From: Pseudobythopirellula maris
GTDB lineage: Bacteria > Planctomycetota > Planctomycetia > Pirellulales > Lacipirellulaceae
NCBI RefSeq assembly: GCF_007859945.1
Contig: NZ_SJPQ01000002.1
Location: 1,094,279 to 1,158,278, forward strand
Direction of reading: 5' to 3'
Length of the DNA: 64,000 nt
In this document: piece by piece, positions 16,041 to 32,957 of the stretch
How the letters are laid out: every line of letters begins with the position of its first letter
Numbering within the stretch: position 1 is the stretch's first letter
Notes under the pieces: model-generated
What the model saw: only the letters and a program-made list of their open reading frames with translations
Told to the model about the DNA's origin: nothing
Database searches by the model: none
Made by a program: the position numbers and the translations under genes

Positions 16041-16379
16041 GGCGGCTAGTGCGGGTCGTGTCGATCGAGAGCAGTGGGCGGCCTGTGCCGCGATCAAATG
16101 TAGCACACGGTCAACACACGGCGCGGGAATGTTGGAAAAATTCACCCGTCGAATTTGCACATCGTCCATTGTGGGGTAGTGTTGCTAGGTTCGACACCCC
16201 ACCGGTGCGTAACCCGTAAAACCCGCCTAATACATTCCCACCCCAACGCCCCCCCCACGCCACGCGATCGTGTCGCCCTCCCCCCTCGCGGAGCCGCCTT
16301 TTATTAATGCGGTTTTGCATGGCGCGTCGCACGGCAAGCGGTCCTCCCATGGACCGCACCCCCTTTGAGGAGTCGTGTC
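16041..16379. other. 339-base divergent promoter region
   Basis: This region lies between the exported hydrolase gene (leftward) and the small lipoprotein gene (rightward) and must hold both promoters. It has C-rich tracts near 16240-16270 and a small hairpin GCGGTCC/GGACCGC at 16338-16357 just before the lipoprotein ribosome-binding site. No gene or known RNA was recognised. Confidence 0.6.
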
Positions 16380-16748
16380 ATGAAGAAAATCTTGATTTTG
16401 ATGGCCGCTGTGCTGCTCGTGAGCAGCGTTTCCGGCTGCGGCTGCTTCCGCCGCATGCGCGACTTCCTGTGCCGCGGATCGTACTGCGGCTCGCAGACCG
16501 CCGCGGTGGCCGCGCCGGCGTACGCCGCCCCGCCGATGATGGCCGCCCCCATGGCCTACGACCCCGGCTGCTCGTACGACCCGGGCTGCGGCTACGGCGG
16601 CGTGCAGACCTACGGCTACAACGGCTACCCGATGGAGATGGGCATGAGCGGCTGCGACAGCTGCCAGTCGGGCTACTCGCTGCCGACCTACGCCGGCGAG
16701 AGCTACATGGACGGCGCGGTCGATCCCGGCCCCAGCCCCGCCCAATGA
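16380..16748 (+). CDS. Small Cys/Tyr/Gly-rich lipoprotein
   Basis: 122 residues. A short lipoprotein signal ends in 'VSSVSGC' (Cys20). The mature part is low in complexity: 'CGCFRRMRDFLCRGSYCGS', an Ala/Pro/Met run, then repeats such as 'YDPGCSYDPGCGYGG' and 'SGCDSCQSGYSLP' with eight or more Cys. Such small secreted Cys-rich proteins are common in planctomycetes and could be disulfide-linked into the cell wall, but that is inference. A good Shine-Dalgarno sequence TGAGGAG (16366-16372) fixes the ATG at 16380. A strong intrinsic terminator follows, so it is a one-gene transcription unit and is probably highly expressed. Confidence 0.8.
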   Translation: MKKILILMAAVLLVSSVSGCGCFRRMRDFLCRGSYCGSQTAAVAAPAYAAPPMMAAPMAYDPGCSYDPGCGYGGVQTYGYNGYPMEMGMSGCDSCQSGYSLPTYAGESYMDGAVDPGPSPAQ

Positions 16749-16812
16749 CTCCAGCCTGACCTCACGCTTCAAGACTCTTTTGGCGCCTTCCACCGCCAAA
16801 GGAACAACACGA

Positions 16813-16871
16813 AATCGGCTCGGACCCCCGCGGCGCCACTCCCTCCCTGGAACGCCCGCACCGAGCCGATC
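16813..16871. repeat. Inverted repeat before the terminator
   Basis: ATCGGCTCGG at 16813-16822 and its exact reverse complement CCGAGCCGAT at 16861-16870 enclose about 38 bases. It sits in the 3' untranslated region of the small lipoprotein gene, immediately before the intrinsic terminator, so the mRNA would end in two stacked hairpins. Confidence 0.65.
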
Positions 16872-16873
16872 TA

Positions 16874-16922
16874 AAACCCCCTGCGGCTCGTTGATCCTGA
16901 GCGAGCCGCTAGGGGGTTTTTT
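16874..16922 (+). terminator. Intrinsic terminator of the small lipoprotein gene
   Basis: Stem AACCCCCTGCGGCTCG (16875-16890) pairs with CGAGCCGCTAGGGGGTT with one small internal mismatch, followed by TTTTTT. It is the cleanest intrinsic terminator in the window. Confidence 0.9.
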
Positions 16923-17165
16923 CGTGCGCTGAATCGCGGGGCGTGAACCGGCTGATGGGTGGCGTCTGCGCCTGGTTATTGAATGACCAACGACCGACCA
17001 ATCGGGGGATGAGTGTCGAACCCATGGGTTGTGGGGCGGTCGATTGCTCAGCGGGCCGCCATTCGGGCCGCCGGTTTTTTTGATCCGCGACCGCGGCGGC
17101 GTAGGATAGAGGTAGCGCCGCCACGGCGCCCGACGCCTGTCCTCGAATGTCCGCCTGGGAGTGTT

Positions 17166-18197
17166 ATGCGTTTCGTGCCGACTATTGCCCTCGCCCTGCT
17201 CGCCTCGCTGTGGGTTGCGTCGCCGCTCGCTGCGCAGCTGCTCGAAACGACCGAAGACGGGCCGCTCCGCTACGGCGACCCGGTCGAGAGCCGGTTCCGC
17301 GTGGGCGCCGAGATCACCGCCCGTCGCGGCGACTGCCGCAATATCCTGGCCATGGTCCCGGTGCCGCTGGAGTGCGCCGAGCAGAAGGTGCGGATCATCG
17401 ACGAAGAGTTCACCGGCGACGTGGAGCGCGTGGCCTACCGCGACGTGGTGGGGGGCGAGGCGCGGCAGATGTTGATCTCGGTGCCGTACCTCCCCGCCGG
17501 CGCCACGGCCAAGGCGATCGTCACGTTCGAGATCGAGACCCGCCCGGTCTTGCACCCCGGGGAGGAGGCGGTCGCCGGGCTCGTCATCCCCAAGCGGCCG
17601 TCGAGAGAGCTGAAACGCTACCTCAGCACGAGCCCCTACATCGAGTCCCGCAGCGGCCGCATCCGGCGCATCGTGCGTGAGGTGATGGAGCAGCTCGAAG
17701 AAGGCGACGCATCCGAATCCGCCGCAGCCAACGCCGCAGCCGACGCCGAGCCGCTCAACGACTGGCGGCGGCTCGAGGCGCTCTACGACTACGTGCTCGA
17801 CAACATCGACTACCTCGAGCAGCCCGAGGACACCAGCGCGCTGCAAACGCTCCGCGACGGCGAGGCCGATTGCCACGGCCGCAGCGCGCTGTTCTGCGCC
17901 CTGGCCCGAGCCGCCGACGCGCCGGCCCGTATCGTGTGGGTCAACGGCCACGCCTTCGCCGAGTTCTACCTCGAAGACCCCGAGAGCGAGCAGGGGTGGT
18001 GGTTCCCGATCGAGAGCGCCGGGTCGCGCTGCTTCGGCGAGATGCCGCTCGGCCGCACGATCATGCAGAAGGGCGACAACTTCCGCATCCCCGAGCGTCC
18101 CAACGACCGGCTGCGCTACGCGAACGACTGGCTCACGGGCAAACCGGCCCGAGGCGGCGGCCCGCCCAGCGTGCGCTACATCCGCGAAACGCTCTAA
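17166..18197 (+). CDS. Exported transglutaminase-like protein
   Basis: 343 residues. The N-terminal 'ALALLASLWVASPLAAQLL' is a Sec signal peptide; ATG 17166 places it at the start. The transglutaminase-like core is in the second half: 'RRLEALYDYVLDNIDYLEQ', then the catalytic Cys in 'GEADCHGRSALFCALARA' and a His in 'IVWVNGHAFAEFYLED' with a following acidic residue, giving a Cys-His-Asp/Glu set. Such bacterial proteins are usually cysteine peptidases or cross-linking enzymes of the envelope. An Ala/Glu linker ('ASESAAANAAADAE') divides the two halves. The stop TAA overlaps the stop of the convergent thioredoxin gene (18194-18197), leaving no room for a terminator. Confidence 0.85.
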   Translation: MRFVPTIALALLASLWVASPLAAQLLETTEDGPLRYGDPVESRFRVGAEITARRGDCRNILAMVPVPLECAEQKVRIIDEEFTGDVERVAYRDVVGGEARQMLISVPYLPAGATAKAIVTFEIETRPVLHPGEEAVAGLVIPKRPSRELKRYLSTSPYIESRSGRIRRIVREVMEQLEEGDASESAAANAAADAEPLNDWRRLEALYDYVLDNIDYLEQPEDTSALQTLRDGEADCHGRSALFCALARAADAPARIVWVNGHAFAEFYLEDPESEQGWWFPIESAGSRCFGEMPLGRTIMQKGDNFRIPERPNDRLRYANDWLTGKPARGGGPPSVRYIRETL

Positions 18198-18790
18198 AGA
18201 GTACCGCCGCCGGCCGCGCCCTCGCTCCGCGCCCGCAACTCGCGCCGCAGGTCCGCGGTCGAGTGCCCGCGCCACACCGAAACGCCCGTGCGGTCGTAGA
18301 GCACGAGGGTCGGTATCTGGTAGACGCCCATCGCCTCCCAGGTTGTTTTGGCGCCGTAGCCCACCGGCCAGTCGAAGCCGTCGATCCGCTCGATCATCGC
18401 CTCGACACGGTCGAGCTGGCTTCCCGGCTCGCTGGTCAGGCCGAGAAAGGCGACATCGTCCGTGGAGAACTCCTCCCGCAGCTTGGCCATCTGCGGCAAC
18501 GACGCCACGCAGGGCGGGCACCAGGTGGCCCAGGCGTCGATGACGACCAGCCGCCCGGCGAGCGACTCGCGTGACGGCGTGGCGCCCGGCCCGGTGTTGA
18601 CCCATCCCTCGACCAGCAGCGGCGGCAGCGGCGCCGGCGTGTGCGCCTCGCCCGCCGGGCGTGTGAACCCTTCGATCAGCATCCCCACCACCACGGCTGC
18701 CACGAGCCACAGCAGCGGGTGAAACGAACGCTTGGCGGGCGCCGGGCTTTTTTGCTCCGGCGGCGCCGGCGTGTCCGCGTCGCCCATCAT
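18194..18790 (-). CDS. TlpA-like membrane-anchored thioredoxin
   Basis: 198 residues. A Pro-rich N-terminus is followed by one membrane anchor, 'HPLLWLVAAVVVGMLIEGF' (about residues 24-42). The thioredoxin fold carries the active site 'DAWATWCPPCVASLPQMAKL' (WCPPC) and the cis-Pro loop 'YQIPTLVLYDRTG'. Proteins of this TlpA/ResA type reduce or exchange disulfides outside the inner membrane. Two start codons are possible (18790 and 18787); either overlaps the stop of the giant gene, so the two are coupled. This ties it to the pseudopilin run: it may act on Cys residues of the giant protein or pilins, which is inference. Confidence 0.88.
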   Translation of the reverse strand: MMGDADTPAPPEQKSPAPAKRSFHPLLWLVAAVVVGMLIEGFTRPAGEAHTPAPLPPLLVEGWVNTGPGATPSRESLAGRLVVIDAWATWCPPCVASLPQMAKLREEFSTDDVAFLGLTSEPGSQLDRVEAMIERIDGFDWPVGYGAKTTWEAMGVYQIPTLVLYDRTGVSVWRGHSTADLRRELRARSEGAAGGGTL

Positions 18791-21700
18791 TCGATCCTCC
18801 GGCGGAGCAAGATCGCCCGCTCGACGTTGGCGTCGTCGCCCGGGCGGAACGCCACCGGCTGCGTGCGGTCGATCAGGTAGAAGCCCCGCGCGCGGTTCGT
18901 GTCGCCCGTGTCGGACCCGAGCTCGCGACCGAGCACGTAGCCATCGGGGTAGACTTGGTTAAACAACGCCAGCTGATCGTCTGCGGGGCCCGTGGTGGTG
19001 TCCCAGCCATAGCGCTCCGCGATCACCGGGTGCTCGTTGGCCGGCGTGACCTCGAAGAACCCGACCGTGATCCAGACCGCGAACGTCCCCGAGCGGCCGG
19101 TGGTCATGTTCGCCAAACGGGTCATCGGCTGGTAACGCAGCGAGGCGTTCCGTTCGGTGTCGAGCGACGGCTCAAGCGAAGCGCCCGAGAACAGCGGGAC
19201 CACGGTGACCTTGTCGTCACCGGCCGAGTCGGTCAGCAGGCTGTCGGGGATCGCGCCACCGGAGCGAACGAGCGCTAGGTCGTCGCCCAGGCCCGCCTCG
19301 CCGGCGTCGTCGAGCACGCCGTCGCTGCTGCTGTTGACGGTCAGATCGTCCTGGTACCTTGACCCCCAGGCGCCGTCGGGCCCCGGCGAGGTGGGGTGCG
19401 CTCGCAGCATCGAGGCGTCGGAGCCCCCTTGCGTCATGTTCGCCAGCGGCGCGTCGAAGCCGGCGTTGGGCGAACGGAACGGGTTGGCGAAGAACGTCGG
19501 GAACGACGCGTTGAGCAGCCGCGGCGAGTAGTCGTGCACGCCGCCGGCGGGCAACGGGGCAGCGCCGGCGTAGCCGCGGCGGCTCACGACCACGTCGCGC
19601 CAGGCCGGGCCCAAGTGGCCGGTCTGCAGCAGTTGCGTCCCCGCCGAGTCGATGAAGTTGCCATCCTTCAGGCGGTGCATGATCCCGTCGTACACCTCCG
19701 ACCACATCTCGGGCAGCAGGTCCGTATCGTCGTCCACGCCGCGGCGGCCGACCACCGTGTTGAGGTTCACCTTGCCCGGTTCGCGGTAGTGGTCGACCCG
19801 GTTGAACGGGGCGACGAGCCCGGCGCGCGGGTCGGCCGGCTCGACCGTCGGGTCGGCGAACTGCGTGGGATTGAGCAGCGTGTCGGTCGCCACGAACCGC
19901 GACGGGGTGTGGACGTAATCGAGCAGCCGGTAGAAGTGCGGCGCGCCGTAGGCGATCACCTTCGCCTCGGTGATCGTGTTGCTGGGGTCATTGGGGTCGG
20001 GATACTGGATCTGGTACGTCCGCTGCTGGGCCGGGTCGGCCGCGGTCTGGAAGAACGGCAACAGTTGGCCAAACGGCGCCATGGTCGGCGCCCGCCGGGC
20101 GGTGTTCGTAAGCTCGGCGGCGTTGGCGCCATTGAGCACGGCCTCTTCACCGTTCCACGGGTTGGGCTGCGCTGGCGCCGCGGCGTTGAAGCCAGAGAAG
20201 TAAGTCAGCATCCGATTGGCGCCGTGCATCGGCGCCTGCAGCAACTCGCTGGCGCTGACGAACGGCCGGTTCGGCCAGTGGAACGTGGCGAAGGCCGAGT
20301 TGTTGCGCAGCGTCTCCGGTTTCTCGAGCGCGCCGGAAGGCAGGGTCGTGTTCGTATCATCGGCGAGCTTGACCATCGGCGTTCCGAGCGCCTCGCCGGC
20401 GACGCCATCACCATCGATGTCAAACGTTTCGGCGGCTATCGCTAGGTTGTCGATCCGGCCGTCGTTATTGGGATCATCTTCGCGGTCCCAGAGCAGATCT
20501 TGGCCAACGAGGAACTCCTCGTCATTGACGTCGCCAAAGCCAAGGCTCGTGAGGTACGAGAAGTCGATCACGTGCTCCTCGTAGCCGGTCCCGAGGAACT
20601 TCTCGTCGAAGGTCAGGAACGCTTTGACGCTGTCGTCGTCGAGCCGCTCCTTGGTCATGCGGTCGGCGGCGGTGACGGCGTGCGGGCTCTCCGGGTGGGA
20701 GATCTCGGTGGTGGTGGTCGGGTTGGCTTGCCGCCACAGCAGGCGGTTCATCGCCAGCGGCCACGCCTCCTCGATCGCCCCCCAGGGCCAGCCACGCTCG
20801 TGCGACTTGAACATGATCGCCGTGTTCACGTCCTCACCGCCGGCGTTGGGCAGGCTGCGCGGCGTGCGGTGACGGACCTCAGGCCCCGAGACGCTCGTGT
20901 CGGGAACGTGCACGTACTCCGATTCGGCGGGGGTCTCCAGCTCGCTCTCGCGGCTGCTCGTGCTGTTGAACGCCGTCAGGTCGAGCGGCATCGTGTCGAC
21001 CGTGACGTACGGGTTCACCTCGAGGTTCGCGTCGTGCTGCGGGTTTTCCGACCCGTCGGACCGCCTCGGCGGCGGGTTCCAGGGCAGGAGCGGGTTGGCC
21101 AGCCGCTCCAGGCACATGGTCCGGTAGTTGGGCGTGGTCTGGTTCTCGACCAACTCGGGGAGGACGTCGAACGGCTCGTCGAACGGGGTCTCGAAATACC
21201 CCTCGGCAGGCTTCGCGCTCGAGACCGCGCCGCTCGTGTTCGGCCGGTAGATTATGTCGAGGCTCGGGTCGAGCTCGAGCTGGCGAACGAAGTACTCGTC
21301 GAGCGGTTCCGAGACCGAGAACCCGTCGATCGGGATCGCGATGACCGGCGTGGTTGCGTGCTCCGAGGCCAGGAGATCCGCCGTCGCCGTGATGTTGTAG
21401 TAGTCGTCGTTCGCTTCGCCGTCGATCGGGGGACCGAGCACCAGCCGGCTCTCCGACCCGCCGTTCATCCGCAGTACAAACTGGTGCACGTCGGGCGAGG
21501 GGTGGGGCATCATCTCGAAGCGGCGCAGCTGCTGGTTGCTCGAGACGCCGGCGTGGGGCGAGCCATCGAGAAACTCGTTTTCGACTTCGCCGCCGGCGCT
21601 CTCGAGCAAACGCGAGACGAGCGTCGTGTAGCGTCCGGCGAGTTTGTTGGCGTCGTCGCTGAGGGTCGCCGACTCGTCGCGGAGGTCGCGGTTGTAGACC

Positions 21701-24700
21701 GCGCCGATCGAGCCGACCACGGCCCGACGCCCGGGCAGCAGCGGCGCGAGCGGGATCGGCTTGCCGACGGCGGGGAGGTTGGCGTCCGTGTCGTCCGTGT
21801 ACTTGATCCGGTTGAGCGGGGCGAACTTGCTGGCGTGCACCTCGAGCACGGAGCCCCCGGTGCCGACTTCGCCGCCGGGGGCGACGCCCGTCAGCTTGAC
21901 GCCGACGGCGGGCCCACGCTCACGCACCAGATTGGCGGGCGCGCTTGCCGACAGCTCATAAGCGAGCTTCGGCACGCGCCACCCGGGCGCCGTCAGATCG
22001 ATCTTGGGAGTGGTCGAGGCGACCGGGGGCCCAAAGCCAACCGTCGGTCCGGCCGCGGCGGTTTCGGTGACCGGGGCGATCATGTAGAAGGCCCGCTCGA
22101 TGTACTGATTCGGCTTCTGCAGCACGCGGCGGGTGATCTCGCGATCGATCACCTGCGGCGCCGGCGTCTGCTCCGTGCCGGTCAGCGTTCGGGGGCCCCC
22201 GGTCTCTCTGCCGTGGAGGCGGCTCGAGATCTCGATCTCGACGTCGCCGAGGTCCACGGGCTGCGCGAACCGGTCGAAGCCGGGGAAGTTGGGGTCGAGC
22301 GGCGTGGGGGGCGTTTCGCGCAGGCCGGTTCCGGCCGCCGCGTCGTCGGTCGACGTGGCGAGCGAGTTTTGCGCTTCGAGGACCTTACGGCTCCAGAATT
22401 GGCGGTAGGCGAACGTGAGCGGCGGGATCGTCTTGCCGCCCACCTCGCGGATCTTTTCCGAGGTGTAGGCCCACGGGCCGTTGGCCATGGGGCTGTCCTC
22501 GTAAGTGCCGTCGTTGAGCCGGTGGGCCGGGTCGTCGTCGGCGAGCTTCACGTCGCCCTGGATCCGGGCGTCGGCCTCAGCGGCCGACGGGTCGACGGTC
22601 GAGTTGCGGACCATCGGGTGGTCCTCGACACAGATGAACCGCCAGACCGGCGAACGTGATCTGATCGGCTGGGAGGGATCGGCGGGCAAGTCGCTGAGCC
22701 GGTCGAACTCCACGCCCTGCGAGAAGATGCGTTCGGTCGTGTCGCCGTCGCCGTCCTTGTCCAGCACGTCGACGTAGGAGTAAATCTCGGCCGGACGCTG
22801 CCCGCCGAAGGGCCACGGGTTGAGCAGCTCGAAGAAGCAGTTGCCCTTGGGCTTGTAGCGCTGGTCGAGGTCGTCGTCCTGATTTGCGCCGACCTGGCCG
22901 CCGTCGCCCTTGTTGCCGGAACTCTCGGGGATCTCGTCGTCGGTGAGGCGGCGGTCGTGCCACGCCAGGCCCTCGGTGATCAGCGCCTCGGGGCGCTCGG
23001 CGCCCCAGACCAGGCCGTAGGTGTTGTCAAAATCGTTGATCGGTTCGTCCGAGTCGACCAGCCGCTGGACCGGCGCGCCGAAGCCGCCGGCGGTCACTTC
23101 CCGGACGAAGCCGGCCCCTTCGTTGGTCGTGACGTCGCCGTCGATCGGGAAGACGGCGATCGGGGTTTTCTCCGATCGACGCGTGGGGCTGTAGTCGTAC
23201 TGCGCGACGTTCCAGCCGTCCCACGGGTTCTCGTCGTACTCGAACGGGGTCATGATCGCGTCGGGGTCGCGCATGTCCGCCACGTTGATCGCCCACTGGG
23301 CGATCTGCCGACGGGTGAGCTTACGCATGGCGGCCACCCGCGCCGCTTGGACCGATTGCTCGAGCGCCTGCTCGTGGGCGTCGGTCGCGCCGGCGGCGAT
23401 CAGCTCCTCCTCGATCTCGCCTTTCAGGTCCCAGCGGAGTCGGTACGCGGTGCTCGAGTCGCTGCGGATGTTCGACTTGAGGACGTCCGGGTCGCTCTTG
23501 AGGTCCTCGGGCGGGTCGGCCGAGTTGTTGTAGCTGCCGCTCAGCGGGTCAAGGTAATGCAGCACCTGCGGGTCGTTGTCGTCGTACGGCGCCAGGTAGT
23601 TCTCGTCCATCAACAGCAGCGTCAGGCAGTAGAGGTGCCGCGCGTAGAGCTGCCGCGCCATCCGCGAGTCGTCGCGGAGCGGCGCCCCCGAAACGTAGGC
23701 CCCGCGGCCGTTCGTGTCGCGGCCCGCGGTGTAGTCGAAGTTGTTCAGCTCGCCCGCGTCTTGGACACCGTTGTTGTTCACGTCGATCCAGTCGAGCGGC
23801 GGGTCGAAAACGCCGTTGCCGTTCAGGTCGGCGTACGGCTCCGAGCCGTCCCACACGCCGTTCCCGTTGGCGTCGGCGTAGGGCTCGCCCGCCTCTTGGG
23901 GCTCGTCGACCACGCCGTTGCCGTTGTTGTCGCGGCCGTCGCCGAACGGGCGGTTGAGGTCCATCCTGAGGCCGGCCAGGACCTCCGGGGCGAGCAACCC
24001 GCCGTAGGAGAAGAAGGGGGGGATGTTCCGCATGTCGACCGTCTGGTCATCAATACCACCATCGTTCAGATCACGATTACGCGAGAACTCCGTAGGGCGT
24101 GTGTTGTCGCCGTGAATGACCTCGTTGATCAACTTGTTGGCCCGCGCCAACTCGACTTGCCCCGACACCCCGGTGCGGAACGACAAGTCGACTGGGATGA
24201 TCCCCTGCCGCTTGAGTTCGAGCACGACTCGGTAACGCAAGTAGTCGGTCAGCCGCGCGTTGGTGGGGGCCGTGTCGCGCATCACGACGGCGTAGTCGTC
24301 GCAGTCGGCGTACCAAAGGGTGTCGTAGTCGATGGCCGCGCCGTTGGGGAACGTGTAAGTGGCGACGCTGTTCGTGTTGAACACGAACACCGTCTCGTCG
24401 CCCTCGTTGACGAGGCCGTCACCGTCGTCGTCCGCGGGCATCGGATTCCCCGCCACCGTGGTGTCGCGCGGCACGCCCGGCAGGCCGTCGGCGCCGAGGA
24501 TCAGCCGGGTGGTCCAGTAGTCGTTCGGCGTGGGTACCTCGTGGCTGTCGGTCGTGACGAGCCGGCGGTTGATGGCGGCCTGCTGCTCGGCGACGAGCGC
24601 CTGGAGGTCGTCGGGCGCGAAGTTCTCCGTCGTGTTGGAGCCGATCGTGTTGTCATTGATCGCCTCGTCGAGCCGGTTCTGATAAGCAAGTTTCGCCGGG

Positions 24701-27393
24701 TCGAAGGCGTCGACCAGATTCCACAGGCGGCCCTCCAGGTCGCCCGCGTCGGCGTCGTTCGCCCGCAGCACGCGCTCCAACTCGGCGGGCGAGAACGGGG
24801 CGTCGTCGTTGATCGGCGCCCCCGCCGGGTAGCTATTCACCACCGCCTGGAGGTCGGCCACCGGCCGTCGCCGAGCTTCGGCCGACAGGTTGAGTTCATA
24901 GGGTGAGTCGTCGAGGATCGGGCGGCTGTAGCTACCGCTGATCGCATCATTGCGGTCAGCGTTCACCTCACGCAATGGCGAACCGGTCGCGCCCACTCCG
25001 GCAGAGTAACGCGAGAACAGGTCGGGCATCTCGCCAAAGCCGGCTGCCGGCTCATTTAACCCGATGTACGTGGGGAAGCCGAAGAAGTCGGTCCAGACCC
25101 GCGGATCGCGGGTGGTGAATGGATCGTTCACGTCGAACGTGTGACCCGGTGAATAGTAGCCACGGCCGTCGCTGACCGAAGCCTTGTCCGCGCTGAACGA
25201 CCCGTAGCGTCCCCACGGCTCGGCGATGTCGATCACCGTGGCGACGAAGCGGCCGTCGTCGTTCGGGTCGGGTCGGCCGGCTAGCAGCCGAGCGTAGTCG
25301 TCGAACTGTGCGATACCAGTGTAAGGCTCCGAGCCACCGAGAGAATGATTTTGCTGTTCAGCCAGCGGCAGGTTCGGCGAGAGGACCGAGCGCAGCGTGA
25401 TGTCGGCCGGGCCCCAGCCTTCGCCGTGCGGCAGCTGGTTTGAGCTTTGCAGGATTTGGCCGGAGGTGAAATCTTGGGCCAGGTTGCGGTTTAGATCGCT
25501 GCTAAAGTCGTTGGTAACGGCGTCACGCAGCGTTGAGCGGTCGAGGTCGTCGCTGACGAAGTGCTCGGCCGAGCCGTGGGCGTTGAGGTTCAGCCGGCCG
25601 TCGAGGTCTTCGACCAGCATCGCGACGAGCGGCTTGTAGAGCCGGCCGTCTTCGGTCTTCTGCACCGGCAGGCCGATGTCGACCCACACGCTGTCGGCCG
25701 CGCCGTCGTTGTCGTTGTCGACGTCCCACGGGCCGACCGCCTCCCAGTACGGGAACGTGATCTCTCCGGCGGCGTTGAGCAAGGCCGCCGCGCCGGGCAC
25801 GGCGCTCGTTCCCTCGTAGCGCGACAACAGGTTGCCGCCGTCGAAGTCGGGGTGGTCATCGGTCAGCGGCCGCAGGATGAACTTCCGTTTCAGCTCGGCG
25901 ATCTTCAGCGCAGTCACGAGGTCGAGACCCGAGACATCCTGGTTGGATTCGCCGTCGACAAGGGGCCGCAGGATCGCCAACGCCCGTTCATCCGCGTTGT
26001 CGATGAGAGACGTCAGCCACGTCGAGCGGTGCAGGCGGTGGAACCAGAAGTTCACCAGCGCCGGCCGGTGGAACGACGGGATCGGCAGGTCCTCCAGGTC
26101 GAGGCGGACCGCCTCATCGGCGTCGTACCCGGAGTCGGGGTCAACACGCGCGCCGTTGTTGAGCATGACCCGCCCGCGGTGGCGGGGCGTGGTCGATTGC
26201 AGCGCGAGGAACAGGTTCTGGAAGTCGGCCGCGTCGTACGACTCGTCGGTGTCGCCGGCGCCGGGGAAGTGGCTGTAAAGCGACGCCGACAGACTGGGGT
26301 CGAAAAGGGGCCGGAGGCCGTCGGTCGCTGCGGGGGCGCCGCCGTTGCTGCGGAACGTGAGCCCCGCCGCGAATGGGTCGGTCGCCAGGGCAGGGTCGAG
26401 GTAGGCGACATTGCCGAGGTTGAAGTGCTGGGCGTTGGGCGCCAGCGCCGGCTCGACACCGACCCACTCGCCGGTGGGAAGCTCCACCGCTTCGAGCGCC
26501 GTGAGGCGTGGCCCGTTGTAGTCGGCGTACGCGTTGAAGCCGACGCCCGCGCCGTTGTACGGCCGGCCGTTGACGACGAACCGGTAGCCGACCGTCTGGC
26601 CGTTCTTGATCTTCAGGAAATCGCTCAGCGAAGGATCGGTGGGAGCGACGAAGCGCAGGGCGCCGCCGTCCTGACGCCGGGGGGCCATCACCCGCAGGCG
26701 GCCCACTCGCGTCTCGCCGTTGTTCGACGTGTCGCCTTGGGCCAGGCCCTGCCCGAGGTACTCGTAATCGACCACCCGGACCGATTCGCCCGCGAGCGGC
26801 CCTTCGGTCATCGTGAGCAGGCAGCCGTTGTAGTAGCCGTCGGTCTGCGAAAGCTGGTAGTCGACCGGCAACCCCTGGTTGTCGTAGTCGAGTCCCACGG
26901 CGTTGGTGGGGTCCAAGCGCCGGCCCGCCTCGGTGATGCGGAGGTCCTGGCGGTCGCTCACGTACAGGTCGACGAACTGCCCCTCGGTCGGGCCGAGCAT
27001 CTGCGCCGTGGTGGCGCCGGCGTAGCGAGGGAAAATGTCGGAATCGAGCACGCCGTCGACGCTCGCCGTCATCACCCGCGCCTCGAAGCCGTCCGTGCCG
27101 TAGGCGTCGCGCAGCAGGCTGTGGTAGCGGATCGCCGAGTGGCGGTTGTTCGTGTCGCGCAGCAGCTGCATGAGCGCGCGCTCCAGCAGGTCGTCCGGCT
27201 GGCTGGTGGCGCGGTTCTTCTTCTCCAAGATGCGCGCGGCGGTGCGGTGCTGGTCGCTCGAGACGAGGAACGCCGTGCCGATCAGCATGAACAGCACGAG
27301 CATGCTCAGCACGACGAGCAACAGCACGCCTCGACGCGAGCGTCGGGCGGCCGCGCGGCGGCGTAGCATCAGATTGCGGTGGTTGGTCTTCAT
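18787..27393 (-). CDS. Giant GspK/PilX-like minor pseudopilin (2868 aa)
   Basis: The N-terminus is pilin-like: 'RRSRRG' then a hydrophobic helix 'VLLLVVLSMLVLFMLIGTAF' with no Glu at position 5 after the Gly, as in GspK (tip pseudopilin) and PilX. Two Asn-Leu-Asn motifs of GspK type occur, 'VEDLDGRLNLNAHG' (about residue 600) and 'REPGKVNLNTVVG' (about 2545), nearly 2000 residues apart. Acidic loops of the Ca-binding type are scattered between them: 'DNDNDGAADS' (near 560), 'DDDGDGLVNEGDE' (near 985), the tandem 'DNNGNGVVDE', 'DANGNGVWDG', 'DLNGNGVFD', 'DVNNNGVQD' (1150-1225), 'DKDGDGDTTE' (near 1545) and 'DIDGDGVAGE' (near 2330). Only about six Cys are seen. Typical GspK is 300-350 residues, so this is roughly ninefold larger. 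It probably sits at the tip of a pseudopilus and reaches outside the cell. Confidence 0.85.
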   Translation of the reverse strand: MKTNHRNLMLRRRAAARRSRRGVLLLVVLSMLVLFMLIGTAFLVSSDQHRTAARILEKKNRATSQPDDLLERALMQLLRDTNNRHSAIRYHSLLRDAYGTDGFEARVMTASVDGVLDSDIFPRYAGATTAQMLGPTEGQFVDLYVSDRQDLRITEAGRRLDPTNAVGLDYDNQGLPVDYQLSQTDGYYNGCLLTMTEGPLAGESVRVVDYEYLGQGLAQGDTSNNGETRVGRLRVMAPRRQDGGALRFVAPTDPSLSDFLKIKNGQTVGYRFVVNGRPYNGAGVGFNAYADYNGPRLTALEAVELPTGEWVGVEPALAPNAQHFNLGNVAYLDPALATDPFAAGLTFRSNGGAPAATDGLRPLFDPSLSASLYSHFPGAGDTDESYDAADFQNLFLALQSTTPRHRGRVMLNNGARVDPDSGYDADEAVRLDLEDLPIPSFHRPALVNFWFHRLHRSTWLTSLIDNADERALAILRPLVDGESNQDVSGLDLVTALKIAELKRKFILRPLTDDHPDFDGGNLLSRYEGTSAVPGAAALLNAAGEITFPYWEAVGPWDVDNDNDGAADSVWVDIGLPVQKTEDGRLYKPLVAMLVEDLDGRLNLNAHGSAEHFVSDDLDRSTLRDAVTNDFSSDLNRNLAQDFTSGQILQSSNQLPHGEGWGPADITLRSVLSPNLPLAEQQNHSLGGSEPYTGIAQFDDYARLLAGRPDPNDDGRFVATVIDIAEPWGRYGSFSADKASVSDGRGYYSPGHTFDVNDPFTTRDPRVWTDFFGFPTYIGLNEPAAGFGEMPDLFSRYSAGVGATGSPLREVNADRNDAISGSYSRPILDDSPYELNLSAEARRRPVADLQAVVNSYPAGAPINDDAPFSPAELERVLRANDADAGDLEGRLWNLVDAFDPAKLAYQNRLDEAINDNTIGSNTTENFAPDDLQALVAEQQAAINRRLVTTDSHEVPTPNDYWTTRLILGADGLPGVPRDTTVAGNPMPADDDGDGLVNEGDETVFVFNTNSVATYTFPNGAAIDYDTLWYADCDDYAVVMRDTAPTNARLTDYLRYRVVLELKRQGIIPVDLSFRTGVSGQVELARANKLINEVIHGDNTRPTEFSRNRDLNDGGIDDQTVDMRNIPPFFSYGGLLAPEVLAGLRMDLNRPFGDGRDNNGNGVVDEPQEAGEPYADANGNGVWDGSEPYADLNGNGVFDPPLDWIDVNNNGVQDAGELNNFDYTAGRDTNGRGAYVSGAPLRDDSRMARQLYARHLYCLTLLLMDENYLAPYDDNDPQVLHYLDPLSGSYNNSADPPEDLKSDPDVLKSNIRSDSSTAYRLRWDLKGEIEEELIAAGATDAHEQALEQSVQAARVAAMRKLTRRQIAQWAINVADMRDPDAIMTPFEYDENPWDGWNVAQYDYSPTRRSEKTPIAVFPIDGDVTTNEGAGFVREVTAGGFGAPVQRLVDSDEPINDFDNTYGLVWGAERPEALITEGLAWHDRRLTDDEIPESSGNKGDGGQVGANQDDDLDQRYKPKGNCFFELLNPWPFGGQRPAEIYSYVDVLDKDGDGDTTERIFSQGVEFDRLSDLPADPSQPIRSRSPVWRFICVEDHPMVRNSTVDPSAAEADARIQGDVKLADDDPAHRLNDGTYEDSPMANGPWAYTSEKIREVGGKTIPPLTFAYRQFWSRKVLEAQNSLATSTDDAAAGTGLRETPPTPLDPNFPGFDRFAQPVDLGDVEIEISSRLHGRETGGPRTLTGTEQTPAPQVIDREITRRVLQKPNQYIERAFYMIAPVTETAAAGPTVGFGPPVASTTPKIDLTAPGWRVPKLAYELSASAPANLVRERGPAVGVKLTGVAPGGEVGTGGSVLEVHASKFAPLNRIKYTDDTDANLPAVGKPIPLAPLLPGRRAVVGSIGAVYNRDLRDESATLSDDANKLAGRYTTLVSRLLESAGGEVENEFLDGSPHAGVSSNQQLRRFEMMPHPSPDVHQFVLRMNGGSESRLVLGPPIDGEANDDYYNITATADLLASEHATTPVIAIPIDGFSVSEPLDEYFVRQLELDPSLDIIYRPNTSGAVSSAKPAEGYFETPFDEPFDVLPELVENQTTPNYRTMCLERLANPLLPWNPPPRRSDGSENPQHDANLEVNPYVTVDTMPLDLTAFNSTSSRESELETPAESEYVHVPDTSVSGPEVRHRTPRSLPNAGGEDVNTAIMFKSHERGWPWGAIEEAWPLAMNRLLWRQANPTTTTEISHPESPHAVTAADRMTKERLDDDSVKAFLTFDEKFLGTGYEEHVIDFSYLTSLGFGDVNDEEFLVGQDLLWDREDDPNNDGRIDNLAIAAETFDIDGDGVAGEALGTPMVKLADDTNTTLPSGALEKPETLRNNSAFATFHWPNRPFVSASELLQAPMHGANRMLTYFSGFNAAAPAQPNPWNGEEAVLNGANAAELTNTARRAPTMAPFGQLLPFFQTAADPAQQRTYQIQYPDPNDPSNTITEAKVIAYGAPHFYRLLDYVHTPSRFVATDTLLNPTQFADPTVEPADPRAGLVAPFNRVDHYREPGKVNLNTVVGRRGVDDDTDLLPEMWSEVYDGIMHRLKDGNFIDSAGTQLLQTGHLGPAWRDVVVSRRGYAGAAPLPAGGVHDYSPRLLNASFPTFFANPFRSPNAGFDAPLANMTQGGSDASMLRAHPTSPGPDGAWGSRYQDDLTVNSSSDGVLDDAGEAGLGDDLALVRSGGAIPDSLLTDSAGDDKVTVVPLFSGASLEPSLDTERNASLRYQPMTRLANMTTGRSGTFAVWITVGFFEVTPANEHPVIAERYGWDTTTGPADDQLALFNQVYPDGYVLGRELGSDTGDTNRARGFYLIDRTQPVAFRPGDDANVERAILLRRRIE

Positions 27394-27552: not shown

Positions 27553-29082
27553 TTATTCAACCGCCCAGGCGCTGCCCGCTTCGAGCCGCATCGTCTTGGT
27601 GTGTACGGCGACCGCGCCGGGGATGATCGCCACCCGCAGGTCGTTCGATAGCTCCGTGTTGTCGCCCCCGTTGACGCTCTCCGCCCACGGCCAATCGGGC
27701 CCCCTGAGCGCGACGAGTCGGCGGTCGGGGATCGAGCCCGCCGAGGTGAGTTTCTCGCCCAGCGGGTTCAGCGCTTCGCCCTCGCCGTCGATGTTCACCA
27801 CGCGGTACCAGGCGAGGAAGAACTTCGGCAGCTCGGCGGTCGACAGCGGGTGCGGCCCGCAGACCATCACGTACTGCCCGCTGCGGAGCTCCTCGAACGG
27901 GCTCTCTTCGGGCTCTTTGGCGCCGTTGACGATGGCTCCGCTCACAGCGCCAGAGCTGGCGTAGAACCGCTCGAGCAGCATCTCGCCGCCGCCGATCCCG
28001 GTGGTCACCACGCGTCCACGCACCAGGCGCTCCGCCTGGAGCGTCTCGAGGTATCCGTCGCCCAAGACACGCTTGTGGAACACGACGGCCGAGACATCGT
28101 AGGGGTAGGCGTCCGGCGTGGAGACGAGCGCGTTGCGCGCCTCGGACGTCACGGGGTTGACCGTGAGCAGCCAGCTGTAGTCGCCGCGGGTCTGGCGGTT
28201 GAGCGGCTGGGCCTGCTCGTCGACCGTGACCGTTTGCCACCGCCCCAGGGCGGGGTCGTCGCCGCGGGCGGGGAGCTCCAGCGCGATGTCGTTGGCGCCG
28301 CTGAACAGCGCGTCGGCCTTGGGAAGCTGGAGCATCTGTCGCCTGTTGGACGACGTGATGTAAGTGTTTCCGTTGGGATCGTAGGCGGGGAAGGTGGTGG
28401 TGACCCGCCTGACCGGCCAGCAGAGGGGGTTGGCGAACGGCCCCCAGTAGGGCGACGAAGGCGCGGGCCCGCCATCGAAGGCGGGGAAACGCCGCGCCGC
28501 CGCCGAGTTGATGGCGGCGCCCCGGAAGCTGGCGTACACCAGCGGACTGGTTTCGTTCAGCGCGCTCGCCATGCCGAGCGGATCGATGACGAACGCCGCC
28601 CCGTAGCCGCGATTGAGATAATGGTCGATCGGCCCCGGGCCGATCAAGGCGTGGGCTCGTTCGGGATTGCCCGCGGTCAGCAGACCGTAGCCCTCTTCGT
28701 TGTAGCCGTTGGCGTCGAGCGCCCGGATCCTGTTGATCAGGCCGGGCACGGTCTCGAGCCGACCCGCGTTGCCCGTCGGGATGGGCTCGAGGTTCGGGTC
28801 GAGCTGCACCCAGTTGTCCGGGTCGAGCCAGCCGCGTGTGATGGCGTCGTTCAGCGCGGCCTGGGCGAGGGCGTTGCCCTGGTCGGCGATGTCGCCCGAC
28901 TGCATGTAGCTGCCCCCCACGGGGAACAACGACGCCACGCCCAGCAAGCCGAGCGTGAGGATGCCCATCGAGATCAGCACCTCGGCCAGGGTGAGCGCCG
29001 CGCGGCGGCGCGGAGTCGTCCGCCCCCGTGCGGCGGGCGCCGATTCTGTTTCGAGATTTCTGCGACCTGCGTTCGTCATCAT
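27553..29082 (-). CDS. Pseudopilin with PilV/GspI-like N-terminus (509 aa)
   Basis: The N-terminal prepilin signal is 'RRRAALTLAEVLISMGILTL': basic leader, Ala at -1, then L-T-L-A-E with the Glu at +5 and a hydrophobic helix typical of PilV/GspI. Usual prepilin peptidase substrates have Gly at -1, so cleavage after Ala would be unusual. The 480-residue globular part is much longer than the 100-150 residues of GspI and has no recognised domain. ATG 29082 overlaps the stop of the GspH-like gene (ATGA). It is followed after 159 bases by the giant gene. It is expected in the inner membrane and, once assembled, the pseudopilus. Confidence 0.85.
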   Translation of the reverse strand: MMTNAGRRNLETESAPAARGRTTPRRRAALTLAEVLISMGILTLGLLGVASLFPVGGSYMQSGDIADQGNALAQAALNDAITRGWLDPDNWVQLDPNLEPIPTGNAGRLETVPGLINRIRALDANGYNEEGYGLLTAGNPERAHALIGPGPIDHYLNRGYGAAFVIDPLGMASALNETSPLVYASFRGAAINSAAARRFPAFDGGPAPSSPYWGPFANPLCWPVRRVTTTFPAYDPNGNTYITSSNRRQMLQLPKADALFSGANDIALELPARGDDPALGRWQTVTVDEQAQPLNRQTRGDYSWLLTVNPVTSEARNALVSTPDAYPYDVSAVVFHKRVLGDGYLETLQAERLVRGRVVTTGIGGGEMLLERFYASSGAVSGAIVNGAKEPEESPFEELRSGQYVMVCGPHPLSTAELPKFFLAWYRVVNIDGEGEALNPLGEKLTSAGSIPDRRLVALRGPDWPWAESVNGGDNTELSNDLRVAIIPGAVAVHTKTMRLEAGSAWAVE

Positions 29083-30494
29083 CCGCGTCCCCCGCTGCTG
29101 GCCGCCTCGCGCACCAGGGACTGCGCCTGGATGATCTGTGAATCGAAATCGCCGGTGAAAGTCGGCGGCACAAAGGCGTTCTCCACCGTGCGGATCGTGC
29201 CCGTGCGGCCGCCGATCACCACCCACCGGCTGTCGAGATTCAGCCAGTTGTATTGGCGGGTGAAACGCTCGTAATCGGGCGCCGGCAGGTCGGTGAGGTT
29301 GGCGTCTTCAAACCGGTCGGCGCTCAGCAGCACCGGGTCGTTGCGTGATTCTTTGGGTGTGTCCGTGCTGCTGCGCAGCTCGGTCGGAGGGGCCGGGATC
29401 GCGTCTCGCAAGCCGATCAGCAACGCGATGTTCTCCCGCACGGATTCGCTGACGATCGGCGCCCCCGGGTAGCCTACGGCGTTGGGATTCACGAGAGCGC
29501 CACGCGGCTGCCTGGAGTAGTAGATCCGATCGACCGACCCGTCCGGCGCGAACATGATCATCGGCGAGGTGGTCGCGAGGCGGTACTCTTGTTCCGCGTC
29601 ATCCCAGGCGTGGCCCGGCGTGTAGAGCTTGTCGCTTGTGGCGAAGCCGCTCGCCTGCAGGTCGATCGCCGCGCCGGTGGGCAACTGCAACGGCGGCGCC
29701 GGCGAAGCGGTCGGCTGGCGGTGGATCTTGTACGGCGCGCCGGCGGTCCAGTAAGGGCTTGTCGGCGCCACGCCCGAAGCGATCAACGCCTCGACCGACT
29801 GGAACTCGTTGCCGTCGGCGTCGTAATTGATCGCCAACGCGGGGCCGTCTTCGATCAGCTCGGCGGCGTAGCTGCGAGTGCTCCCCGCGGGTTGAGAGAA
29901 GTATCCGTTCGCGGCCGCCTCGCCGGTGCGGACGGTGGTGGTGTCGATGCCGACCGTCCCCGAGCCATCGCCCGCCAGCAGGCGATAGTGGGCGCCAAAA
30001 ACGGTCACCTCGTCCCCCGGCCGCAGGAACCGTGGCGGGACGCTGGCGTGGTCGAGATTGCGAGGCAATCTGTCATCGGTCTCCACGACGCCGTGTTGAA
30101 CGAATTGGAGCAGGTACGGCGCGGTCGGGTGAATGCGGCGCGCCACACGGCAGAGCGAGCCGCTGGTGAAGCCGGCGTAGGGGGGCGGCGCCTCGACCGT
30201 GAGCAGCTCGATGCAGACGCCGTTGTCCTCGCCGTTGAGCGTGTCGACGCTGAGCCGCTTGAGCATCACGCCCTGCGGCCGGCCGGTCTGGATCGCCCGC
30301 GACTGGGCCGCCGACAGGTAGGCGTTCACCTCGCGCGACCCCTCGCGCAGCAGCCGGTCGTCGCCGGCGGGCGAGAGGACCGGGATCGCCGACGAGATGA
30401 GGATCGTCACGATCACCGCCACGACGAGCAGCTCGACGAGCGTCATCCCGCCCGGCGGGGCGGGGGTTCGGCGTTGATGGGATAAGGGTTTCAT
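29079..30494 (-). CDS. GspH-like pseudopilin (471 aa)
   Basis: The prepilin signal 'PPGGMTLVELLVVAVIVTIL' has Gly at -1 and Glu at +5. The next part, 'REVNAYLSAAQSRAIQTGRP', is the amphipathic helix and 'A-R-A-I' segment characteristic of GspH/FimT pilins. The C-terminal part is long, with many Gly/Pro/Asp residues and motifs such as 'IMFAPDGSVDRIYYSRQPRG' that resemble the beta-hairpin end of GspH. ATG 30494 is preferred over the upstream Met at 30560, which would give an implausible leader. It is separated from the preceding pseudopilin by 142 bases and overlaps the next by 4. Confidence 0.85.
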   Translation of the reverse strand: MKPLSHQRRTPAPPGGMTLVELLVVAVIVTILISSAIPVLSPAGDDRLLREGSREVNAYLSAAQSRAIQTGRPQGVMLKRLSVDTLNGEDNGVCIELLTVEAPPPYAGFTSGSLCRVARRIHPTAPYLLQFVQHGVVETDDRLPRNLDHASVPPRFLRPGDEVTVFGAHYRLLAGDGSGTVGIDTTTVRTGEAAANGYFSQPAGSTRSYAAELIEDGPALAINYDADGNEFQSVEALIASGVAPTSPYWTAGAPYKIHRQPTASPAPPLQLPTGAAIDLQASGFATSDKLYTPGHAWDDAEQEYRLATTSPMIMFAPDGSVDRIYYSRQPRGALVNPNAVGYPGAPIVSESVRENIALLIGLRDAIPAPPTELRSSTDTPKESRNDPVLLSADRFEDANLTDLPAPDYERFTRQYNWLNLDSRWVVIGGRTGTIRTVENAFVPPTFTGDFDSQIIQAQSLVREAASSGGRG

Positions 30495-30636: not shown

Positions 30637-31848
30637 CTAGTTGGTCCGGGTCGCGATGTCGTGGTTCGTGATGTTGTCGGCGTAGTTGTCGCCGTCTGAG
30701 TCGATGCTAGGAGCCAGGACGGCGCGGGCGTCGCTCATCTCTTGGCCGATCCCCAGCCCGAGACTAGGGTCTTCGTGCAAAGAATAAGGGTCGCTGAATC
30801 TGTTGAAGAAGTTGGCGGCGGAGTAGATGTCCGAGTCCTCGTCGCCGCCGTCGGAGTAAATGAGCGGCATGATTCTGAATCCACGCGCCGCCGGTCCGCC
30901 GCCGCTGGCTCCGCCGGTGTCAACCTCGAAATTCGTCATGTTCGGGCCGTCCACGCGGAACGGGTCGAACGGGTCGAAGTCGTTGTTGATCGCTTGCTGC
31001 ACCGCCTTGAGCTTGTCGCCGTCGCTAGCCGCCGCGCCGTTGAAGTCCTTCTTCGTGTCGCGGTAGATGCGCGCCAGCTGGTTGAAACCGAGCTGCGAGT
31101 CCGACTCGAAGCCGGGCGCCCAACGCAGGAAGCGGATCGGGTTGCCCCAGCCGTCGAGGAACTCGGGGGCGCCGTCGCCGTCGACGTCGCCGATGTCGGC
31201 CGGCTTGAAGAGCCCCGCCGCCTCGCCGTCGCTCGTGGCGTTCATCACGACGAGGTACAGGCACTCGGCCGATTGGTTGGCCATAAGGTCATCCCGTGAG
31301 ACACCCGCGTTAATCATCGCTTGCAGCCGTCGGCTGTAGAGCCGCGAGAGCGTCGGCCGTTGGCTTGCGAATAAAGGACCGCCGAAATCCTCGGGTTCGA
31401 TCTCCGTAAGGCTGGCCGGCAACGGTTTGAGGTAGACGTCGCTCCAGCGGTCGGGCATCTCCATCCGCATCGTCTCGCGCAGCGCTTGGAGGCGGCCGGC
31501 GGCTTCGACCTGGCCGTTCGTCCAACCGCTCGTGATGAACAAACCACTTGCCGCCAAGTAGTCGCGGTAGTCTTCGACCATGTTCACCACGGGCGGGCGG
31601 TCGGCCCGGTTCAGCTCGACGCGCTGGTAGCGGTACTGGTCGTAACGCTCCATCAGCTGCGTGTGGAGGCGCGCGATGAGCTGGCGGGTGCGGGCCTCGC
31701 GGGCCGTCTCGCCCGCCACGCCCGCCACGCCGACGATCAACGCCGCCAGGATGCTGACGATCGCCATCGAGACCAGCAGCTCGACCAGCGTGAGGCCGAG
31801 CAGGGGCCCTCGCTTGTCGGCTCTCGTGTTTTCCGCTGGGAAGATCAT
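30637..31848 (-). CDS. Pseudopilin with GspG-like features (403 aa)
   Basis: The prepilin signal 'RGPLLGLTLVELLVSMAIVS' has Gly at -1 and Glu at +5. In the C-terminal half is 'DVDGDGAPEFLDGWGNPIRF', where the 'GWGNP' part matches the DPWGNPY signature of major pseudopilin GspG, next to an acidic Ca-type loop. A second acidic loop, 'DSDGDNYADN', is near the end. Main pseudopilins bind calcium in known systems, so a similar need is likely here. ATG 31848 overlaps the stop of the preceding pilin gene (ATGA). At 403 residues it is about three times the size of GspG. Confidence 0.85.
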   Translation of the reverse strand: MIFPAENTRADKRGPLLGLTLVELLVSMAIVSILAALIVGVAGVAGETAREARTRQLIARLHTQLMERYDQYRYQRVELNRADRPPVVNMVEDYRDYLAASGLFITSGWTNGQVEAAGRLQALRETMRMEMPDRWSDVYLKPLPASLTEIEPEDFGGPLFASQRPTLSRLYSRRLQAMINAGVSRDDLMANQSAECLYLVVMNATSDGEAAGLFKPADIGDVDGDGAPEFLDGWGNPIRFLRWAPGFESDSQLGFNQLARIYRDTKKDFNGAAASDGDKLKAVQQAINNDFDPFDPFRVDGPNMTNFEVDTGGASGGGPAARGFRIMPLIYSDGGDEDSDIYSAANFFNRFSDPYSLHEDPSLGLGIGQEMSDARAVLAPSIDSDGDNYADNITNHDIATRTN

Positions 31849-32957
31849 GGCTGCGCGTTCGCCAGGGTCGAGTCGGAAAGGTTCGACAGCGTGTCGGCCA
31901 GGTCGAGCGTCCACGGGCCTTCGGGATAAGTGATGTTGCCTTGCAGCTCGAACTGACCGCCGCCGGCTTCTACGACACGGGGGAACGAACCGTACGCCCC
32001 ATCGATGCCGCCGTGCAGGATCTGGAACTTGCCGTCGCCGGCGAAGTTGAACGGCCGGTTCGTGGCCGAGGCGGCGTTCGTGTTCGGCGTCTTGACCGCG
32101 TAGACGTTCTGGATCGCCTCGAAGCGATCCGAGGCGCCATTGGGATTGTTTAAGATGACACTGGTCACCGCCGGCACGTCGGTGTCGGGCAACGCCCCGC
32201 CACGCGAGGCGTCGAAGTAGACGTACGGCAGTTCGAGGATCGAGTAGGTGTAGAAGTTGATCCGGCGCAATGTGCCGTCCGATTGTGGGTCGTCGTACAC
32301 GATGAAGCGGCCGTCGGAGTCGTCGAAATAGCCGTCGTCATCGCGCGGACCGAAGCGTTCGACCTTCAGCGCGATCTGCTTGAGCCGGTTCTCGATCGGG
32401 TCTTGCGCGGCGGGGGGGGGGGCGGAGCTGGTGGTGTCGATGGCGTAGGAGGGCCCGCCGACGCCGGAGATCGGGTAGTTCGGGTCGCTGCTGAAGCCGC
32501 CGATCCAGAACACCAGCGATTCGGCCGCGGTCATGCCGCCCGGCAGGTTGGGCGCGTCCGTGCCGGACCCGGCGCCCCGTCCCACGAGCGCGCTGATAAG
32601 CGAGTCGGGTTCGCGGTGCTTCGGAGCGACCTTCTTGAGGAACCGCTTGAAGTCGTTGTAGATCTGATTCTCGTCGATCGGGCCCGAGCCGTCGTTCTGG
32701 GCGTTGGGCGGGTACGCGCTGACGACCGTGCCGTACTGGTCCTCGAGCGAGGTGGCGAGCTGGTTGATCTCGACCGACACCTGCACCTGGCGGGCGCGGT
32801 TGCGCGCCCCGGCCGCCGCCACCAGCAGCAGGCTGGCGAGGATGGCGATGATCGCGATCACGACCAACAGCTCGACCAGCGTGAACGCGGAGCGCAGCGG
32901 TCGGGGTGCGGAATGCGCGAGACGCCGGTGGCGTGTGCTCGGGTGGTTGTTTGCCAT
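31845..32957 (-). CDS. Major-type pseudopilin (370 aa)
   Basis: The N-terminus 'RPLRSAFTLVELLVVIAIIA' is a classic type IV pilin/GspG helix with Glu at +5, but the residue at -1 is Ala, not Gly. After the helix comes the usual 'RARQVQVSVEINQLATSLED' segment. The C-terminal half contains 'FAGDGKFQILHGGIDGAYG', similar to the 'FQIisaG-DG-yG' segment near the end of many planctomycete and GspG-like pilins. The first pilin of the run, 89 bases after the platform gene, it is a likely candidate for the main subunit, although its size argues for a larger head domain. ATG 32957 is the only start giving this leader. Confidence 0.87.
   Translation of the reverse strand: MANNHPSTRHRRLAHSAPRPLRSAFTLVELLVVIAIIAILASLLLVAAAGARNRARQVQVSVEINQLATSLEDQYGTVVSAYPPNAQNDGSGPIDENQIYNDFKRFLKKVAPKHREPDSLISALVGRGAGSGTDAPNLPGGMTAAESLVFWIGGFSSDPNYPISGVGGPSYAIDTTSSAPPPAAQDPIENRLKQIALKVERFGPRDDDGYFDDSDGRFIVYDDPQSDGTLRRINFYTYSILELPYVYFDASRGGALPDTDVPAVTSVILNNPNGASDRFEAIQNVYAVKTPNTNAASATNRPFNFAGDGKFQILHGGIDGAYGSFPRVVEAGGGQFELQGNITYPEGPWTLDLADTLSNLSDSTLANAQP

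Follow-up and report, generated by a model that had tools for sequence, protein, structure and literature searches.

A 2868-residue protein encoded last in a planctomycete pilus operon is probably a giant modular minor pilin of the GspK/PilX type

Introduction

What kind of protein would carry two GspK-type Asn-x-Asn motifs nearly 2000 residues apart? The usual GspK/PilX pilus tip subunit has about 300 residues. We examined a window of 64,000 nucleotides from the genome of Pseudobythopirellula maris (contig NZ_SJPQ01000002.1), in which a single gene encodes a protein of 2868 residues, here called P0001. A preliminary description of this gene had offered two accounts of its motifs, a huge insertion into a GspK fold or a tandem of GspK-like units. 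We compared these accounts using sequence conservation, structure prediction, and gene context.

Results

The P0001 open reading frame (ORF) lies on the minus strand, begins with ATG, and contains no internal stops. It is not an artifact of a GC-rich frame, because 88 of 98 related genomes contain matches, many of them single open frames of 1700 to 3231 aa with 35 to 56% identity. The features of the gene and protein, all on the minus strand, are as follows.

18787 to 27393: P0001 gene, encoding the probable 2868-aa GspK-like giant minor pilin (ORF, orthologs)
27208 to 27351, residues 15 to 62: class III (prepilin-type) signal RRSRRG/VLLLVVL and long N-terminal helix, with no Glu at +5 (hhalign, AlphaFold2 [AF2] helix)
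25759 to 27096, residues 100 to 545: first large predicted insertion, from helix to motif-1 strand, with a beta-barrel-like part at about 100 to 277 (AF2 of P0001 15-905; VIA)
25573 to 25641, residues 585 to 607: predicted strand LYKPLVAMLVED and motif 1, DLDGRLNLNAHG (L137 model strand 9-20; conservation)
20281 to 25572, residues 608 to 2371: predicted main insertion region, from motif 1 to the C-terminal GspK elements (alignments, L137 joined model)
23758 to 23931, residues 1155 to 1212: uninterrupted run of four DxNxNG calcium-loop-like repeats (pattern scan)
20965 to 22995, residues about 1467 to 2143: predicted beta-sandwich-like domain inside the insertion (L137 model strands 447-770; VIA, weak)
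20224 to 20274, residues 2374 to 2390: NRPFVSASELLQAP..., a GspK alpha-domain-like N-x-P-F-x-S-x-x-E-L element (hhalign; conservation)
19753 to 19788, residues 2536 to 2547: motif 2, YREPGKVNLNTV (conservation in orthologs)
18790 to 19131, residues 2755 to 2868: C-terminal strands (TFAVWITVGFFEV, ARGFYLID, ILLRRRIE), predicted to close the pilin sheet (L137 model strands 1126-1199)

Twenty orthologs that we fetched whole had open frames of 1804 to 3172 aa, and Pirellulales orthologs with both motifs ranged from about 1600 to 3200 aa. Of 149 genomes sampled within the class Planctomycetia, 122 contained the family according to a C-terminal profile, mostly in open frames of 1300 to 3200 aa; outside the Pirellulales this search gave weaker matches, often limited to the C-terminal strands, which are among the best-conserved parts of the family. 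In a sample of 246 genomes from the phylum, all 15 matches fell within the Planctomycetia. A scan of named genomes also gave matches in Botrimarina, Aeoliella, Lacipirellula, Adhaeretor, Bythopirellula, Blastopirellula, and Rhodopirellula, and by its closest matches the window probably lies near the Lacipirellulaceae.

Both motifs of the preliminary description were located in P0001, DLDGRLNLNAHG at residues 596 to 607 and EPGKVNLNTVVG at residues 2538 to 2549, about 1940 residues further on. They were retained by nearly all of the 20 orthologs, which had been chosen on whole-protein similarity, and exceeded the expectation from shuffling: the pattern G[KR]-x-N-x-N occurs twice in P0001 and 0.0075 times per shuffled copy, so the pair is more than chance, and for the less strict [LIVM]N[LIVM]N the corresponding figures are two and 0.35. 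Asn602 and Asn604 of motif 1 were kept in 58 and 57 of 60 orthologs, a set gathered with a search pattern that itself favored motif 2 in part, and the R, P, G, N, N, and T of motif 2 were invariant in 21 orthologs. P0001 has the motif arrangement of GspK, with D-x-x-G-K/R-x-N-x-N before the alpha-domain and G-K/R-x-N-x-N-T within it. The two motifs are real but not the only ones, as a third, degenerate element, PEVLAGLRMDLNRPF, is found at residues 1136 to 1150 and reads NLN or NIN in some orthologs. Further, the spacing of about 150 residues initially ascribed to GspK is too short for the Planctomycetia, in which the first and last motifs of GspK are mostly 260 to 350 residues apart. In the orthologs of P0001, motif 2 follows motif 1 by 955 to 2030 residues; the length of the insertion varies among them and its ends are constant.

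The N terminus is that of a pilin. An R-x-G signal precedes the helix in nearly all full-length orthologs, the helix is the only transmembrane-like stretch in P0001, and the class GspK profile matched it with an E value of 2.4e-5 (hhalign). The mature N terminus, VLLLV, is without Glu at position 5, as in GspK.

Beyond the helix, single-block profile matches to GspK were weak (P, 0.005 to 0.05); for instance, the N-x-P-F-x-S-x-x-E-L element matched GspK residues 193 to 212 with a P of 0.008 (hhalign). Four blocks are collinear, with P0001 residues 594 to 607, 1045 to 1169, 2535 to 2608, and 2755 to 2784 corresponding to GspK residues 124 to 137, 199 to 233, 412 to 449, and 473 to 501, and 3 of 100 block-shuffled GspK profiles reached the P0001 chain score. 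Searches of Pfam and NCBIfam gave no family for P0001 at an E value of 1; the GspK models NF037980 and PF03934 did not match at this threshold, and P0001 was absent from their own-genome matches listed. No pseudopilin sequence in the PDB matched the family profiles, and comparison of P0001 and its family alignments with Pfam, NCBIfam, and PDB sequences yielded nothing outside the helix. Moreover, the length of P0001 (2868 aa; orthologs, 1606 to 3231 aa) is outside the range of about 300 to 600 residues for GspK. Taken by itself, the sequence comparison is suggestive of kinship with GspK.

The same genome carries an ordinary GspK of 552 aa at a separate locus on contig C1 (C1:704148), together with GspE and a secretin, and therefore has at least one K-type protein besides P0001. 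The two proteins have the collinear blocks and three Asn-x-Asn elements in common, but the ordinary GspK spans less than 300 residues from the first to the last motif, compared to about 1940 in P0001, and its gene lies at another locus, which has an E gene and a secretin of its own. Several planctomycete GspKs also have three Asn-x-Asn (NLN) elements, the extra one lying between the first and last. The planctomycete GspKs, of about 550 aa (e.g., that at 28 to 1686 on the minus strand of L055), all scored below the NCBIfam cutoff. Two other weak own-genome matches to T2SSK were rejected, one being a DnaE-like polymerase (L004) and the other a spore-coat-H-like protein (L005) by their sequences.

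For structure prediction of the joined ends, we used a compact ortholog, L137 (1642 aa; 42% identical to P0001 over 1370 aligned positions), in place of P0001. The modeled part comprised the final 1200 residues of L137, beginning shortly ahead of the motif-1 strand and including the C terminus. AlphaFold2, given 41 orthologs, predicted a single unit (pTM, 0.81; mean pLDDT, 72.3). Foldseek against the PDB and viral models found no significant match for this model or for P0001 residues 15 to 905, and the sole pseudopilin it returned for L137, 9a1f_T, had a nonsignificant E value of 2.9. VIA-align was used as a second look at Foldseek's 226 chains for the L137 model. The top chain was XcpX, the GspK of Pseudomonas aeruginosa (5vtm_X; rmsd, 3.7; 187 of 259 residues; model residues 9 to 1200), with a Z score of 8.4, which is near the chance maximum for unmatched models in large libraries, although a gap of about 5 units separates the two GspK chains from all others. 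The second was GspK from an XcpGHIJK pilus model (9a1f_T; Z, 7.8; 185 residues aligned), and third place went to an unrelated fold at a Z of 2.9. The aligned range begins in the motif-1 strand (model 9 to 20, P0001 585 to 596) and finishes in the last strand (model 1193 to 1199, P0001 2861 to 2867).

P0001 residues 15 to 905 alone gave a model (pTM, 0.73) with a long pilin helix (model 7 to 47) and a barrel-like domain, in which the motif-1 strand was broken into two-residue pieces. Its best VIA match (Z, 5.7) was to a common beta-barrel arrangement, in addition to lone-helix matches, and GspK was absent from the chains aligned, which were Foldseek's top ones. A core split between both ends of the protein would predict that this part alone has neither a GspK match nor a proper motif-1 strand. 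The models favor a small pilin core in P0001 that is interrupted by insertions as long as about 1900 residues. Of the two accounts offered at the outset, a huge insertion into a GspK fold is the one favored, since the joined part of the ortholog was modeled as a single fold, and the two structures most similar to it are GspK chains whose alignments span both motifs. A tandem is disfavored by the single signal and transmembrane helix, by the lack of a significant self-match between the motif regions, and by the single GspK match over both motifs. It is important to note that the insertion between the motifs is not the only one, as at least one more large insertion is predicted between the helix and the motif-1 strand (about 100 to 545).

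Most of the insertion was predicted at middling confidence. The beta-sandwich-like domain of the L137 model matched beta-sandwich chains weakly (VIA Z, 2.8 to 2.9). A run of DxNxNG repeats similar to that of P0001 is found at ORF residues 304 to 348 of L137, in a different loop.

P0001 is the last gene of an operon on the minus strand. Its upstream genes, in operon order, are listed below; the starts of the four pilin-type genes were inferred from the N-methylation motif.

37991 to 39694, minus strand: second PilB-type assembly ATPase (TIGR02538, E 1e-181)
36331 to 37635, minus strand: PilT retraction ATPase (TIGR01420, 472.6 bits; cutoff, 319.1)
34492 to 36213, minus strand: PilB-type assembly ATPase with c-di-GMP-binding N-terminal domain (TIGR02538, E 2e-190; NF053729 over cutoff)
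33047 to 34375, minus strand: PilC/GspF platform protein (T2SSF, E 8e-60; TIGR02120, E 5e-109)
31845 to 32948, minus strand: pilin gene with GspG-like N terminus, the probable major pilin (TIGR01710, E 5e-7; prepilin domain over cutoff)
30637 to 31848, minus strand: pseudopilin-like gene with Verru_Chthon C/GspH-like N terminus (profile matches)
29079 to 30494, minus strand: pseudopilin-like gene with GspH-like N terminus (TIGR01708, E 4e-7; kept at 40 of 45 loci)
27553 to 29082, minus strand: pseudopilin-like gene directly upstream of P0001, with PilV/GspI-like N terminus (weak N_methyl and PilV matches; 41 of 45 loci)

Genes of type II secretion systems (T2SSs) are ordered gspE-F-G-H-I-J-K, with K last. 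P0001 holds the same position as gspK, at the end of an ordered array of E, F, four pilin genes, and K. It is also the last pilin gene of an operon with assembly and retraction ATPases, as is a type IV minor pilin. The C, D, L, and M components of a T2SS operon were not found in this one, which consists of PilB, PilT, PilB, PilC, and pilins. PilT scored over its cutoff and lies between two PilB-type ATPases, and therefore the operon specifies a retractile pilus and not only a secretion pseudopilus. Among 45 long loci in other genomes, the pilin-type genes were kept, going outward from the P0001 ortholog, at 41, 40, 33, and 30 loci, counts that are limited by the 10-kb flanks used. The MshE-type c-di-GMP-binding domain on the PilB-type ATPase at 34492 to 36213 (minus strand), itself over its cutoff, suggests that assembly of the pilus is probably under c-di-GMP control.

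Discussion

Computation shows the signal, the conservation, the operon, and a predicted core, the last on the ortholog L137, and these are probably best explained if P0001 is a GspK/PilX-type minor pilin of giant size and modular build. Such a protein would have its RRG leader cut by prepilin peptidase, and the N-terminal helix would hold it in the membrane and allow it to enter the pilus as other minor pilins do. The head would be built on one GspK-like core, with the motif-1 strand and roughly the last 110 residues in one sheet and the inserted alpha-domain of GspK, marked by the Asn-x-Asn elements, between those strands. Loops of this core would have grown into domains, most of all those that lead from motif 1 to motif 2 and to a lesser degree those that lead from the helix to the motif-1 strand, adding beta-sandwich-like, barrel-like, and calcium-loop repeat parts.

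A published proposal puts GspK at the tip of the T2SS pseudopilus, together with GspI and GspJ, and GspK has an extra domain inserted in its pilin sheet (PMC8179133). Because of this proposal, we would place the head of P0001 presumably at the tip of the retractile pilus, where it would cap a PilB/PilT-driven fiber and offer a large surface for binding a substrate or a surface. The pilus may then grip things through its giant tip subunit, and retraction would draw the bound substrate or surface in. The tip position, along with calcium binding, ligand binding, and the retraction of cargo, is inferred.

Three other explanations were weighed. P0001 could be the GspK of a T2SS, with the same core capping a short pseudopilus by which substrates are expelled, and with the insertions as a secretion-specific head or plug. 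The gene order is T2SS-like, and the neighbors scored about equally on the GspF, GspG, GspH, and pilus models. We nonetheless consider this unlikely given the PilT gene in the operon and the lack of any GspC, L, or M seen beside P0001; further, P0001 would not be the T2SS GspK because the genome has an ordinary one elsewhere, complete with GspE and secretin on contig C1. It is quite unlikely that P0001 is instead a surface giant anchored by a pilin-like helix, with another fold beyond it and Asn-x-Asn motifs that are unrelated turns. That neither the sequence searches nor Foldseek gave a significant GspK match past the helix would fit such a protein, but two GspK chains alone head the VIA list and span both ends, and the collinear blocks and the position of the gene also speak for GspK.

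A tandem of GspK-like units, one complete unit per motif, seems highly improbable. The degenerate third motif (1136 to 1150) and two PF..EL helices (866 to 876 and 2376 to 2386) could be repeats of an alpha-domain half-unit. Three NLN motifs occur in some planctomycete GspKs too. Against complete units, however, stand the single signal and transmembrane helix, the motif regions, which showed no significant repeat on self-comparison, and the GspK match itself, which covers both motifs and is not seen with the N-terminal third alone. A single pilin sheet is already indicated by the L137 model and its VIA match.

The probable giant minor pilin resembles GspK (XcpX, 5vtm_X; NCBIfam NF037980) in the pilin helix without Glu at +5, in an NLN motif before the alpha-domain and a G-K-x-N-x-N-T motif within it, probably in the core fold, as predicted from the L137 model, and in the final place of its gene in the pilin series. 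In contrast to XcpX, it is about 9 times longer, is missed by sequence models, and is encoded with PilT in a genome that keeps an ordinary GspK as well. If our reading is true, a GspK fold can accommodate an extra stretch of nearly 2000 residues, and proteins of this sort escape domain finders for want of a block of sufficient length. We know of no larger pilin-type subunit, and we found no paper in the open literature on a planctomycete GspK of this size. The modular type IV pilins, such as PilB of Streptococcus sanguinis, CofB, TcpB, and ComZ, also use a small pilin module to carry an effector module, and they probably display binding modules at the tip of the pilus (PMC8179133). Both ComZ and GspK have their extra domain as an insertion within the pilin sheet, as predicted for P0001; however, modular pilins attach one or two modules, and the most extreme example that a 2021 survey names has 860 residues, compared to 1600 to 3200 here (PMC8179133). 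Verru_Chthon cassette protein A (TIGR02600, a model of 1296 positions) is likewise a large prepilin-type cassette protein, from a related phylum by its name, and the products of the genes beside P0001 bear a weak likeness to cassette proteins B, C, and D. P0001 itself did not match TIGR02600 or reach its cutoff, and one of 21 ortholog C termini matched it at an E value of 0.085.

Planctomycetes have 12-nm fibers that emerge from large crateriform structures and bind gold-labeled dextran (PMC5394234), and a later paper likened planctomycete pili-like fibers to type IV pili (PMC8303584). Relatives of P0001 occur across the class in the company of PilB, PilT, and PilC, and the operon is therefore a testable gene set for the pili-like fibers and a candidate for their makers. 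A possible tie between the operon and the dextran-binding fibers is attractive. A more specific version, in which the giant head is the tip receptor of the crateriform fibers and captures macromolecules, which PilT-driven retraction then hauls into the enlarged periplasm, we regard as doubtful; if true, the operon would be the missing machinery of planctomycete macromolecule uptake.

Directly downstream of P0001 is a gene for a redoxin/TlpA-like protein (18194 to 18790, minus strand), present at 16 of 45 loci, mainly those of the closest relatives. Adjoining it is an Arg-rich ORF of 827 aa without a family (16227 to 18710, minus strand), whose region is kept at 11 of 45 loci and which is probably a shadow frame over at least one real gene.
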